From Lentisphaerota bacterium (GTDB taxonomy: Bacteria > Verrucomicrobiota > Kiritimatiellia > PWTM01): a stretch of DNA of 39,017 nt. Each line of letters begins with the position of its first letter. Positions within the stretch are counted from its first letter, which is position 1. The stretch covers positions 1 to 39,017 of the forward strand of contig VGWF01000028.1 of NCBI GenBank assembly GCA_016873715.1, given 5' to 3'. Of this stretch, positions 30,923 to 35,228 are shown piece by piece. A program made the translations under genes and the position numbers. The notes beneath the pieces are model-generated. The model was not told where the DNA came from. It worked only from the letters and a program-made list of their open reading frames with translations, and made no database searches.

Positions 30923-32068
30923 TCACCCGGCGGCGGCGCGGTAGGCGTCGAGCGTGAGGCGGGCGGTGCGCTCCCACGAGAACTGCGCGGCGCGGTGGAG
31001 GCCGCGCTCGCGGAGGGCGGCGGCGTGGGCGGGGTCGGTCAGCACGCGCACGACCGCCGCGGCGATCTCGCCCTCGTCGTCCGGCGGCACGAGCGCCGCC
31101 GCGTCGCCGGCGACCTCGGGCAGCGAGCTGCCGTTGCCGCACACGACCGGCGTTCCGCAGGCCATCGCCTCGATCACCGGGAGGCCGAAGCCCTCGTAGC
31201 GCGACGGCAGGGCGAAGACGGCGGCCTCGCGATAGGCCCGCACCAGGCCGGGGCCGTCGACGTAGCCGCGCCATTCGACCGCATCGCCGAGCCGCACCTC
31301 GCGCGCCGCCGCCTCGGCCTCCGGGTAGCGGGCGTCGGGCGGGCCGACGACCACCAGCCGCGCCGCGGGCACCTCGCGCAGCACGCGCGCGAAGGCGCGG
31401 ACGAGCGCGGGGAGGTTCTTGTACGGGTCGCGCCGGCCGACGAACAGCACGACCGGGCCCGCGGGACGGACGTCCGGGTCCGGCCGGAACACCGGGTTCG
31501 CCGCCTCGGGCGTCACGACGACGTCGCCGCGGCGGTCCGCAGGGATGCGCAGTTCGCGAACGACATCCTCCGCCGTGCTGCGGCTCGGCACGAGGATCCG
31601 CGTCGCGCGCCGCGCCGCCTCGCGGATCACGAGCCGGAAGACCGGCAGGAAGCGCGTCTTCATCGCCCGCGGCGTGTACTGCGGGAACAGAAGCGGGATC
31701 AGGTCGTGGATCGTCACCACCGCCCGCACCGGCCCGCGGCCCCCGGGCGCGAAGGCGAGGTAGGGCATCATGTAGTTCGGCGAGTGGTAGACCCGGGTCT
31801 CCAGCCGGCGAAGAAGTCCCGGCAGCCGCGCCTGCGACACGGGCGAGAAGAGGCCCCAGGGCACCAGCCGCGCGCCCACGTTCGACGCCGCGCCGGCGCC
31901 CGTCCCCTCCCTCTCGCGCTCCATCACCTCCGGCCGGTCGAACAGCACCGTGTACCGGACCGAGCCGTCCAGCCCGGGCAGGTGGCGGAGCAGCTCGCGC
32001 GTGTAGAGCCCGATGCCGGAGATCTGAGGGAAGATCCAGCGGGCGTCGATGACGGTGTGAAGGCTCAC
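30923..32068 (-). CDS. GT4-type glycosyltransferase (first of two)
   Basis: This is a 381-residue GT-B glycosyltransferase. It begins near SLHTVIDARWIFPQISGIG, the typical first strand with the GIGLYTREL donor-side loop of mannosyltransferase-like GT4 enzymes. The C-terminal domain has VLFVGRRDPYKNLPALVRAF and the E-x7-E motif FALPSRYEGFGLPVIEAMACGTPVV. I place the start at GTG 32068. No Shine-Dalgarno is visible there, and an alternative GTG lies at 32083. Longer frames reach into the heptamer-repeat DNA and give nonsense residues. It probably uses a nucleotide-sugar donor to build an envelope or exported polysaccharide. It is preceded, across a 216-nt gap of repeats, by a related glycosyltransferase on the same strand. 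Confidence 0.85.
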   Translation of the reverse strand: MSLHTVIDARWIFPQISGIGLYTRELLRHLPGLDGSVRYTVLFDRPEVMEREREGTGAGAASNVGARLVPWGLFSPVSQARLPGLLRRLETRVYHSPNYMMPYLAFAPGGRGPVRAVVTIHDLIPLLFPQYTPRAMKTRFLPVFRLVIREAARRATRILVPSRSTAEDVVRELRIPADRRGDVVVTPEAANPVFRPDPDVRPAGPVVLFVGRRDPYKNLPALVRAFARVLREVPAARLVVVGPPDARYPEAEAAAREVRLGDAVEWRGYVDGPGLVRAYREAAVFALPSRYEGFGLPVIEAMACGTPVVCGNGSSLPEVAGDAAALVPPDDEGEIAAAVVRVLTDPAHAAALRERGLHRAAQFSWERTARLTLDAYRAAAG

Positions 32069-32102
32069 GCGGGGGGGGCTCACAGGTTCGGAGGTTTCGG
32101 GC

Positions 32103-32273
32103 TCAACATCCAACATCCAACAACCAACAGCCAACAACCAACTGCCAATGGGGAGAGGGATGAGGGAGGAAACCTGAAACCTGAAAGAGCGCGCCCGCCT
32201 CCGGTCTTCATTCGGTTGTCCCCCTTCGGTTGTCAGCCTCCGGGCCGGCACCCGGCACCCGACACTTGCCACC
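32103..32273. repeat. Cluster of four period-7 heptamer arrays
   Basis: Four short arrays with a 7-nt period but different sequences lie in the 216-nt gap between two glycosyltransferase genes. Seven units of the type CCAACAN (32103-32151) come first, then GAAACCT twice plus a decayed copy (32169-32189). TTCGGTTGTC follows twice at a 14-nt distance (32211-32234), and CGGCACC occurs twice plus two decayed copies (32246-32273). They are probably transcribed with the operon. They encode nothing convincing, although all frames stay open and spell Trp/Cys/Leu-rich peptides. Confidence 0.75.
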
Positions 32274-32284
32274 TCCGCGCCCCC

Positions 32285-33406
32285 TCACGCCGCGCCTCCG
32301 ACGTTCCTGTAGATGGCCCACGTCTTCCGCGCGGTCTCGTCCCACGTGAATCGCGCCGCGTTCGCGGCGCCGCGGACGGTGAGTGCGTCGCGGCGGGCGG
32401 AGTCGCCGAGCACGGCCGCCACGCGCGCGGCCCACTCGTCGGCCTCGAAGCCGCCCACGATCTCGGCGCCGTCGCCGCAGACCTCGGGCAGCGAGCCGCC
32501 CGTCGAGACGATCGCGGGGGCGCCGCAGGCCATCGCCTCGAGCGGCGTGAAGCCGAAGCCCTCGTAGAGCGACGGGGACACGAACGCCGCCGCGCCTGCG
32601 TAGAGAGCGGGCAGGTCGCCGTCGGCCGGGTAGTCGAGGTGCCGGATCCGCGCCGCCCGGGGCGAGCGGGCGATGCGCTCCAGGATCGGCCCGTAGTTCC
32701 AGCCCTTCATGCCGGCGAGGACGAGGTCGCCGTCGAACCCGCGCAGCCGCTCGAAGACGTCGACAAGGAACGGGAGGTTCTTGCGCGGCTCGAGCGTGCC
32801 GACGGAAAGCAGGTAGGGGCGGTCGAGGCCGTGGCGGGCGAGGACGGCGCGGACGGCGTCCTCCGGCGGACGGCCGAAGCCGTCGGGCAGGCCGAGCGGC
32901 ACGCCGTGCACGCGGGCGGCGGCGGCGGGCCAGCGCTCGCGGATCTCGTCCGCGATCGTCCCGGAGTCGGCCAGGATCGCGTCGGCGCGCGCGACGGTGT
33001 CGTCGATGCGCGCGGTGAGGTAGCGCAGGTTCGCGGCCTCGGCGGCGTGCGGGAAGCGGAGGAACGAAAGGTCGTGGATCGTCACGACGCTGCGTCCGCG
33101 AGCGAGCGGCGGGCGGATGAAGTTCGGGAAGTGGAAGACGTCCGCCGCGCCCGAGAAGGCGTCGAAGGGCGGGAACGCCATGCGTTTCCACGCCTGCTGG
33201 ACGATCCGCCCCGGGATCCAGCGCACGGCCTTCACCGCGGCCCCGGCGGCCTCGAACGGCACGCCGCGGCGCTGGAAATCGAAGCAGAACAGGCGCAGTT
33301 CGTCGGCCCCGCGGTGCGCGCCGAGGTGCTCGACGAGCGACTTCACGTAGCGGCCCACGCCCGCCCGCTGCGCCACCGCCGCCTGGATGTCGATGCAGAC
33401 CCGCAC
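32285..33406 (-). CDS. GT4-type glycosyltransferase (second of two)
   Basis: This is a 373-residue GT-B glycosyltransferase. GTG 33406 is chosen because GGGAG precedes it with a 5-nt spacer and residues RVCIDIQAAVAQRAGVGRYV match the family N-terminus. Upstream residues in the same frame come from the repeat region. Conserved parts are ADVFHFPNFIRPP, VVTIHDLSFLRFP, ADAILADSGTIADEI, PYLLSVGTLEPRKNLPFLVD, and the E-x7-E motif FVSPSLYEGFGFTPLEAMACG. Overall layout and motifs resemble the neighbour at 30923-32068, so the two may be old paralogues adding successive sugars to one glycan. The donor sugar cannot be deduced. The 211-nt gap upstream holds the second heptamer array. Confidence 0.87.
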   Translation of the reverse strand: MRVCIDIQAAVAQRAGVGRYVKSLVEHLGAHRGADELRLFCFDFQRRGVPFEAAGAAVKAVRWIPGRIVQQAWKRMAFPPFDAFSGAADVFHFPNFIRPPLARGRSVVTIHDLSFLRFPHAAEAANLRYLTARIDDTVARADAILADSGTIADEIRERWPAAAARVHGVPLGLPDGFGRPPEDAVRAVLARHGLDRPYLLSVGTLEPRKNLPFLVDVFERLRGFDGDLVLAGMKGWNYGPILERIARSPRAARIRHLDYPADGDLPALYAGAAAFVSPSLYEGFGFTPLEAMACGAPAIVSTGGSLPEVCGDGAEIVGGFEADEWAARVAAVLGDSARRDALTVRGAANAARFTWDETARKTWAIYRNVGGAA

Positions 33407-33458: not shown

Positions 33459-33563
33459 GAACACCGAGCATCGAACACCGAACACCGAACACCGAACATC
33501 GAACGCCGAAGAAGGACTCAACAGCCAACAGCCAACATCCAACGTCCAACAGCCAACGTCCAA
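33459..33563. repeat. Period-7 heptamer array, 15 units in register
   Basis: Fifteen consecutive heptamers fill 105 bp without a phase break. The first seven follow GAACACC (33459-33507, with GAGCATC, GAACATC and GAACGCC variants). Two transition units follow (33508-33521), and the last six follow CAGCCAA/CATCCAA/CGTCCAA (33522-33563). The array lies between murJ and a glycosyltransferase gene. Open frames through it translate to Cys/Trp/Val-rich repeats and are unlikely to be genes. A small hairpin GCCGG-GTTT-CCGGC lies at 33596-33609 next to the murJ stop. Confidence 0.8.
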
Positions 33564-33617
33564 CGATGCGGGACTCCCTGGTGTCGGACGTCTCTGCCGG
33601 GTTTCCGGCGCGAGTGT

Positions 33618-35228
33618 TCAGCTGTTCGCGCGGCGGCGGCGGGTGCGGAAGGCGGCGGCGAAGTCGGTCAATTCGGGGGACTTGAGCAGGCGGGCGGACG
33701 CGAAGTAGGTGGCGATGCCGGCGGTCAGGCCGGCGAGGACCCCGGCGATCTGGGCAAGCTTGGGCGCGAGGCCGGCCCCGAGGGCGAGTTCCCGGGCGCC
33801 GGCGTCGGCGAAATAGGCGGCGACGGCGAGCGCGGCGCAGCCGGCGAGGTCGCGGGCGAGGCTGCGGCCGATGGCGGACCAGTCGGGCGGGCCCAGGCGC
33901 TTCTCGAGGAGGCGGGTGAGGATGAGGCAGTTGAGGGCCTCGGCGGCGACGACGGAGAAGGCAAGGCCGGCGTGCTTGTAGTGGAGCGGCCAGGTCCACC
34001 GGAAGACGAGGCTCATCGCGAGGTTCGCGAGGACGGTGAGGATGCCGACGCGAACCGGCGTCCGCGTGTCCTGCATGCCGTAGAAGGCGGGGACGACGAC
34101 CTTGCCGAGGCCGAAGAAGATGAGTCCGGCGCAGTAGACGCGCAGCGACCGGGCGGTGAGCATCGTGGATTCCGCGCCGAATTCGCGCCATTCGAAGCTC
34201 ATCCGCAGGATCGGCTCGGCCAGCACGAAGAGGCCGACCGCCGCGGGCAGCATGACGAACAGGATGACGCGCGTCGCGTGGTTGACGGACTCGCGGAGGC
34301 CCTTGAGGTCGTGCTGGGCGCCGTGCCCCGAGAAGAGCGGCAGCAGCACGGTGCTCAGGGCGGTGGCGAAGATGCCCTGCGGCAGGTAGATCAGCCGCTC
34401 GCTGAAGTAGAGCGCGGCGGCGGCCCACTCGCCGATCGAGGCGGCGAGCATCGTCGCGAAGAAGACGTTGAACTGCGACACGGCGCGGCCGAGTGCGGCG
34501 GGGCCCGTCAGCGTCAGCACGCGGCCGAGCCGGCGGTCGCGGAGGTCGATGCCCGGGCGAAGGTCGGCGCCCTTGCGCAGCAGCACGGGAACCTGCGCGG
34601 CCCATTGCAGGACGCCGGCGAGCACGATGCCCCACGCGACGCCGTAGATCTGCTCCTCCGGCGTCCGGCCGACGTGCGGGCAGACGAACACGATCACCCC
34701 GATCTGCACGAGGTTCAGGATCCACGGCGTCGCCGCGGGGACCGCGAAGTGGTGGAAGGCGTTCAGCGCGCCCATCGCGACGGCGGCCATGCAGATGAAG
34801 AGGAGGTACGGGAGCATGATCCGGAGCAGGGACCACGTCAGGCGGATGGTCGGCGTCATCCCGTTGCGGGCGAGGATCACGGTCGCCGTGACGATGCCGA
34901 GCGCCACGACCGCGGCCAGCACGACGCCGATGAGGGTGAAGACCGACCGTGCCAGCCGCCACGCCGCCGCGTCGCCCTCGTTCTGGCGGCTCTCGACGAA
35001 GACCGGGATGAAGGCCGCCGACAGGGCGCCCTCGCCGAAGAGCGCGCGGAAGAGGTTCGGGATGCGGTAGGCGACGACGAAGGCGGACATCGCCGCCGAG
35101 GTGCCGAAGGCGCCCGCGAGGAGGATGTCGCGGAAGTAGCCGAGGAACCGGCTGATGGTGGTCAGGCCGCTGACGACACCCGCGGAACGGAGAACGCCGG
35201 AGCGGTCGTCTGGACCGGCGGGGGTCAC
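33618..35228 (-). CDS. murJ: MurJ-type lipid II flippase
   Basis: This is a 536-residue polytopic membrane protein of the MOP/MviN family with about 14 hydrophobic segments. The start is a GTG that overlaps the upstream stop (GTGA); the first helix reads AGVVSGLTTISRFLGYFRDI with the conserved Arg residues. MurJ-type landmarks are NLFRALFGEGALSAAFIPVF near the N-terminus, ASIGEWAAAALYFSERLIYLPQ, ALSTVLLPLFS, and FYGMQDTRTPVRVGI near helix 10. It should flip lipid II (or a related undecaprenyl-linked glycan) across the inner membrane for wall synthesis. It is coupled to a DUF4380-like gene at the end of an envelope operon, next to glycosyltransferases; a role in another polysaccharide is less likely given the GEGALSAAF motif. 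Confidence 0.93.
   Translation of the reverse strand: MTPAGPDDRSGVLRSAGVVSGLTTISRFLGYFRDILLAGAFGTSAAMSAFVVAYRIPNLFRALFGEGALSAAFIPVFVESRQNEGDAAAWRLARSVFTLIGVVLAAVVALGIVTATVILARNGMTPTIRLTWSLLRIMLPYLLFICMAAVAMGALNAFHHFAVPAATPWILNLVQIGVIVFVCPHVGRTPEEQIYGVAWGIVLAGVLQWAAQVPVLLRKGADLRPGIDLRDRRLGRVLTLTGPAALGRAVSQFNVFFATMLAASIGEWAAAALYFSERLIYLPQGIFATALSTVLLPLFSGHGAQHDLKGLRESVNHATRVILFVMLPAAVGLFVLAEPILRMSFEWREFGAESTMLTARSLRVYCAGLIFFGLGKVVVPAFYGMQDTRTPVRVGILTVLANLAMSLVFRWTWPLHYKHAGLAFSVVAAEALNCLILTRLLEKRLGPPDWSAIGRSLARDLAGCAALAVAAYFADAGARELALGAGLAPKLAQIAGVLAGLTAGIATYFASARLLKSPELTDFAAAFRTRRRRANS

Follow-up and report, generated by a model that had tools for sequence, protein, structure and literature searches.

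The heptamer array at positions 33459-33563 of the stretch of DNA analysed here (the window: 39,017 nt, contig 28 of a 5.13-Mb assembly in 289 contigs that is 97.6% complete) is, on balance, probably one copy of a dispersed, copied and selfish-like family of heptamer elements. In its fullest form such an element would be a non-coding block made of a run of GAACAYC units ([GAACAYC]n, the G-run), a fixed junction, GAAGKNCGGACT, and a run of CAACANC units ([CAACANC]n, the C-run). We infer that blocks of this kind have been copied to many unrelated places, mostly spacers and in either direction relative to transcription, occasionally in frame within genes; after insertion the number of units would drift by unequal recombination or slippage, with one unit position varying. 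The elements would thereby behave as selfish or neutral dispersed repeats, seldom harmful and presumably without a host function.

Tiling of 33459-33563 yields 15 heptamers, as described in the initial annotation, with a first half of GAACACC type and a second half of CAGCCAA type: read in sevens, seven GAACAYC-like units lead through two odd ones (GAAGAAG, GACTCAA) to six of CAGCCAA-like form. This 7-nt periodicity greatly exceeds what chance would give: the best lag-7 score is 36 of 42 positions, none of 200 Markov shuffles scores above 29, and no lag that is not a multiple of seven exceeds 29 matches within the window. The accompanying statement that the register is unbroken is not borne out: identity at lag 7 is 38/45 for the first half and 34/40 for the second, and drops to 4/15 over 33504-33518. 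Direct reading of the forward strand gives two arrays with a shared core, [GC]AACANC, namely a G-run of seven GAACAYC-like heptamers (33459-33507) and a C-run (33519-33564; CAACAGC, CAACAGC, CAACATC, CAACGTC, CAACAGC, CAACGTC, CAAC), on either side of an 11-nt junction, GAAGAAGGACT (33508-33518, forward strand), that is the local version of the recurring GAAGKNCGGACT. Because this junction separates the runs, the two halves lie 4 nt out of phase when aligned on their AACA core. The apparent single phase arises because any two 7-periodic stretches tile in one frame by unit rotation, and the earlier tiling hid the shift because the second half had been taken in a rotated frame, as CAGCCAA for CAACAGC.

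A CCAACAN array that had been noted 1.3 kb away is confirmed at 32104-32148, and the two gaps do share unit families, as was also proposed. This second copy (32098-32148, forward strand) begins with a lead-in, CGGGCT, followed by a C-run of CAACANC units, and a lead-in of the form GG[AG]CTCAACA is common to both C-runs. The same spacer holds heptamers of the GAGGGAT and GAAACCT families (32150-32187, forward strand) and of the CCGGCAC / CCGACAC type (32245-32272, forward strand). Between the two arrays, on the reverse strand, is a GT4-like glycosyltransferase gene (32285-33406; Pfam PF00534, PF13692), flanked by the gene for the lipid II flippase MurJ (33618-35228, reverse strand; Pfam PF03023, E=1e-103) and, beyond the 32104 array, by a second glycosyltransferase gene (30923-32083, reverse strand; Pfam PF00534); the array-bearing spacers measure 211 and 201 bp. 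At 32209-32234 there is also CATTCGGTTGTCCCCCTTCGGTTGTC, the local form of GACAACCGAATGGGGACAACCGAATGG, a form found adjoining heptamer arrays at C15:48186, C15:48512 and C22:14480 as well.

Many other arrays were found elsewhere in the genome, where CCAACANCCAACA has 431 matches (24 for a reversed control) and GAACANCGAACANC has 278 (control, 0). All lags were scanned over an unselected set of 30 contigs (1.54 Mb), using gene calls from a codon model trained on Pfam-confirmed genes. Lag 7 accounts for 111 arrays in the spacers of this set and lags that are not multiples of seven for 1-9, the excess being limited to lag 7 and its multiples, and 110 of the 135 arrays lie outside called genes, in 10% of the DNA. 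This combination of a 7-nt excess and a mainly extragenic location places the arrays in the class of intergenic heptanucleotide repeats (STRR-like, or long SSR). Unit families include [GC]AACANC, ACYTGRA, CACYYGM, CCYTCGN, GAGCNNA and GACGGAA, and they tend to occur together, with two or more families in 30 spacers against 16.6 expected (maximum 25 in 300 trials).

The junction is shared across the genome. With at most one mismatch, CGGACTCAACANCCAACA occurs at 38 places (control, 0), both window arrays among them, and it usually follows a GAACAYC run; these near-matches, together with the lists of junctions, identify the local 11-nt form. Where separate G- and C-runs lie on one strand the G-run comes first, in 14 of 14 composites, a claim that rests on the unselected 1.54-Mb set, the 1.84-Mb statistic including contigs picked for carrying the junction. 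Gaps from G-run to C-run in the enlarged set cluster at 12-13, 19-20 and 5 nt, and because 26 of 32 are 5 or 6 modulo 7, the phase shift seen in the window is a regular feature of the junction. Within units, position 6 is free and the others are nearly fixed (five of the seven nearly so, under a run definition that allowed one mismatch elsewhere). The G/C composite, read directly, contains no inverted repeat or palindrome and is a direct-repeat block.

In two congeneric genomes an identical order of units recurs at unrelated loci. One ordered 35-mer occurs, with at most one mismatch, at 8 places in genome G013 and 20 in genome G165, several of them with unrelated flanks, and its units permuted into another order have no match in either genome. 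A third genome, G044, has a repeated unit order of its own, and in the genome studied here the order is only partly conserved (5 matches, against 3 for two permuted orders). A filled and an empty form of one orthologous site are found in genus g11, where the site spans about 380 bp and contains two opposed arrays in G165, and measures 15-18 bp in the congeners G013 and G040.

Arrays have also entered genes in frame. In a GH95 protein, array-translated residues 719-752 stand against 5 residues in 7kmq, an excess of ~29 between LQS and HLLPALP, and in a sulfatase residues 418-495 stand against about 11 in 7oze, an excess of ~67 formed by a composite of the window's kind; the first array of the sulfatase falls in a region of variable length and is excluded from the proven inserts. 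Peptides from in-frame arrays in predicted proteins (PNTEHRT, SNIQHPT) can thus derive from such blocks, and annotators should be warned of this. Two GH95 genes (G000 C29:7614-7701 and C13:28647) carry a CCCTCGN-type insert in frame at the same site before HLLPALP, that of C13 being judged similar by eye, and the arms of the C29 insert are inverted and could form a hairpin. A 28-unit array (G000 C31:30871-31095) is translated in frame inside a fusion gene of nucleotidyltransferase and kinase-like parts. An assembly artefact was rejected, the arrays being in frame within genes and present in independent genomes.

For decades heptamer repeats have been recorded in bacteria and put down to slippage by default; the ordered copies, the constant junction, the orthologous sites that lack arrays and the inserts in reading frame described here point instead to the copying of defined blocks, and block copying would make the origin of heptamer repeats testable. 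Growth of each array in place, from a chance heptamer duplication acted on by replication machinery that favours 7-nt slips, seems to us unlikely. It would account for a period of 7 that is unique across all unit families, heptanucleotides are reported to be the commonest long repeats in many bacteria and polymerase slippage has been proposed for them (PMC4679880, PMC4692102), and block repeats inside arrays, such as the 35-bp step at C1:780, indicate some slippage or unequal exchange. Local growth is at odds, however, with the reappearance of a few unit families, and of one junction that they share, at scores of loci, and with identical ordered 35-mers at unrelated loci. At lag 1, moreover, adjacent units resemble each other less than shuffled units do (z -4.8 and -3.2), the opposite of what single-unit expansion would give, although contraction of identical neighbours could also explain it; at lag 2 units are more alike than shuffled (z +4.0 and +2.3). 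Slippage probably does alter the number of units after insertion.

Several observations count against copying, the partial conservation of unit order in this genome among them. No target-site duplication was established, and three continuous arrays run from C-type to G-type units in register, which looks like conversion in place. No transposase or other enzyme could be tied to the elements, and in this genome matches to the RAYT-type domain Y1_Tnp (PF01797) are few and weak (three, best E 9.5e-6).

It is also conceivable, at a low level of probability, that heptamer blocks from a shared set of unit families are both made and planted by a machinery that spreads horizontally and works in 7-nt steps, and that this machinery has become active here and there in genomes of several families whose close relatives are free of arrays. 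If true, this would be a mobile system that generates repeats and is of a kind not recognised before. The distribution of arrays is patchy: no lag-7 array is present in 359 kb of G002, a genome of the same family, and G165, from another family, has 13 in 300 kb and has GAACATC, CAACATC and CTTGAAA-type units in common with the genome studied here. Runs of three consecutive SAACANC units are present in 54 of 388 genomes from the phylum; six further genomes of the same family were searched, and none has such a run. Contigs from the viral collection with SAACANC-type arrays often hold many other heptamer families, and 55 of 120 have at least two arrays. Four metagenomic sequences filed as viral (L280, L321, L235 and L268) hold up to 18 heptamer arrays in less than 15 kb, with units of the types CATTCGT, TAATGCA, TTAGCAA and others.

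We regard as doubtful a function as binding arrays, in which a protein with a regulatory or chromosome-organising role would read the DNA at a 7-bp pitch, for example as one ribbon-helix-helix dimer per heptad, as omega does on parS of pSM19035, or as a cold-shock-like protein on single strands. The nearly fixed unit positions with a free position 6 would suit such a reader, and so would run length: omega occupies 7-10 heptads in succession and requires at least four without a gap (PMC9499535), and 3-8 units is a common length for the runs of this genome. The parS site resembles the present arrays in its consecutive 7-bp direct repeats, but it is a plasmid centromere with its own RHH protein (PMC9499535). 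Binding sites would, however, sit poorly with the array-free same-family genome, random orientation, the coexistence of several unrelated unit families and the presence of arrays inside enzyme genes.

Still less credible is a signal at the RNA level, by which a transcribed, AC-rich and unstructured repeat would serve as a Rho-utilisation or translation-control site. The AC-rich strand is indeed C-rich and G-poor, and arrays in spacers between tandem genes start a median of 53 nt from the upstream stop. Orientation to transcription is nevertheless random (14:12 in the unselected set and 23:21 in tandem spacers), and a strand-specific RNA role is unlikely because the transcript carries the AC-rich strand in no more than 14 of 26 and 23 of 44 cases, respectively; in the window it is the GT-rich strand that the transcript carries. 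There was no Rfam match, and on this ground and that of random orientation a promoter or RNA-element reading was rejected.

The locus itself can be compared with relatives. A search for 16S found none, and the relatives indicated by MurJ are uncultured bacteria. Orthologues in L032 keep the order MurJ, glycosyltransferase, glycosyltransferase (66%, 58% and 52% identity), the genes being separated by about 74 and 69 bp free of arrays, and no array was found near MurJ in L031 or L033. Because L032 has this gene order without arrays, the glycosyltransferase between the two arrays, an ancestral neighbour of MurJ, predates the arrays, which entered two adjoining spacers later. The proposal of the initial annotation that the arrays are gene-swap sites, marking gene insertion or gain by flanking and mobilising exchangeable genes, draws on their position on both sides of a single glycosyltransferase gene but is contradicted at this locus: gene-swap sites should flank genes that vary between relatives, and L032 has the same gene in the same place with no arrays beside it. 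Array-bearing spacers also adjoin genes of all kinds, and we give the proposal almost no credence. A shared structural role, raised in the same annotation, is conceivable.

The elements are best read as related in kind to the STRR of cyanobacteria, the GGGAATC repeats of Xanthomonas and the TAACTGA repeats of Beggiatoa; the GGGAATC and TAACTGA repeats, like the GGGGAYT repeat of Nostoc, lack an agreed function (PMC4679880, PMC4692102). TAACTGA direct repeats, known from marine Beggiatoaceae, Cyanobacteria and Bacteroidetes (PMC4679880), are likewise heptamers, mostly in spacers, with more than 100 sets per genome and a patchy distribution that suggests transfer; they consist, however, of a single unvarying unit placed shortly before start codons (PMC4679880), whereas the elements described here have several families, a free unit position, and a two-part composite with fixed junction and order, and lie at random orientation a median of 88 nt from the downstream start. 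Xanthomonas GGGAATC and Nostoc GGGGAYT repeats, including cyanobacterial STRR, are similarly degenerate heptamer arrays in spacers near random genes, but their units contain G-tracts and are quadruplex-capable (PMC4692102); the present units lack G-tracts and are accompanied by a junction. A literature search on unit and peptide strings returned only chance matches resembling primer sequences.

REP/REPIN and palindromic insertion elements (PMC3116915, PMC3733652) offer a further parallel, being likewise short, extragenic and dispersed by copying inside a genome. Unlike them, the G/C composite has no palindromic core and no clear cognate RAYT. A separate hairpin-type family does occur among the arrays: there are 89 near-matches (control, 2) of GGAGGGCCGAGCTAYGCGAGGC, which often faces CGGGCTCGCGGTAGCTCGCCCCTCC and forms tandem blocks of ~101-254 bp; in the stretches examined first it mostly adjoins heptamer arrays. 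Its sites include G000 C22:13753, C26:14381, C29:8057-8863 and C32:23779-24461, with others on C74, C84 and elsewhere.
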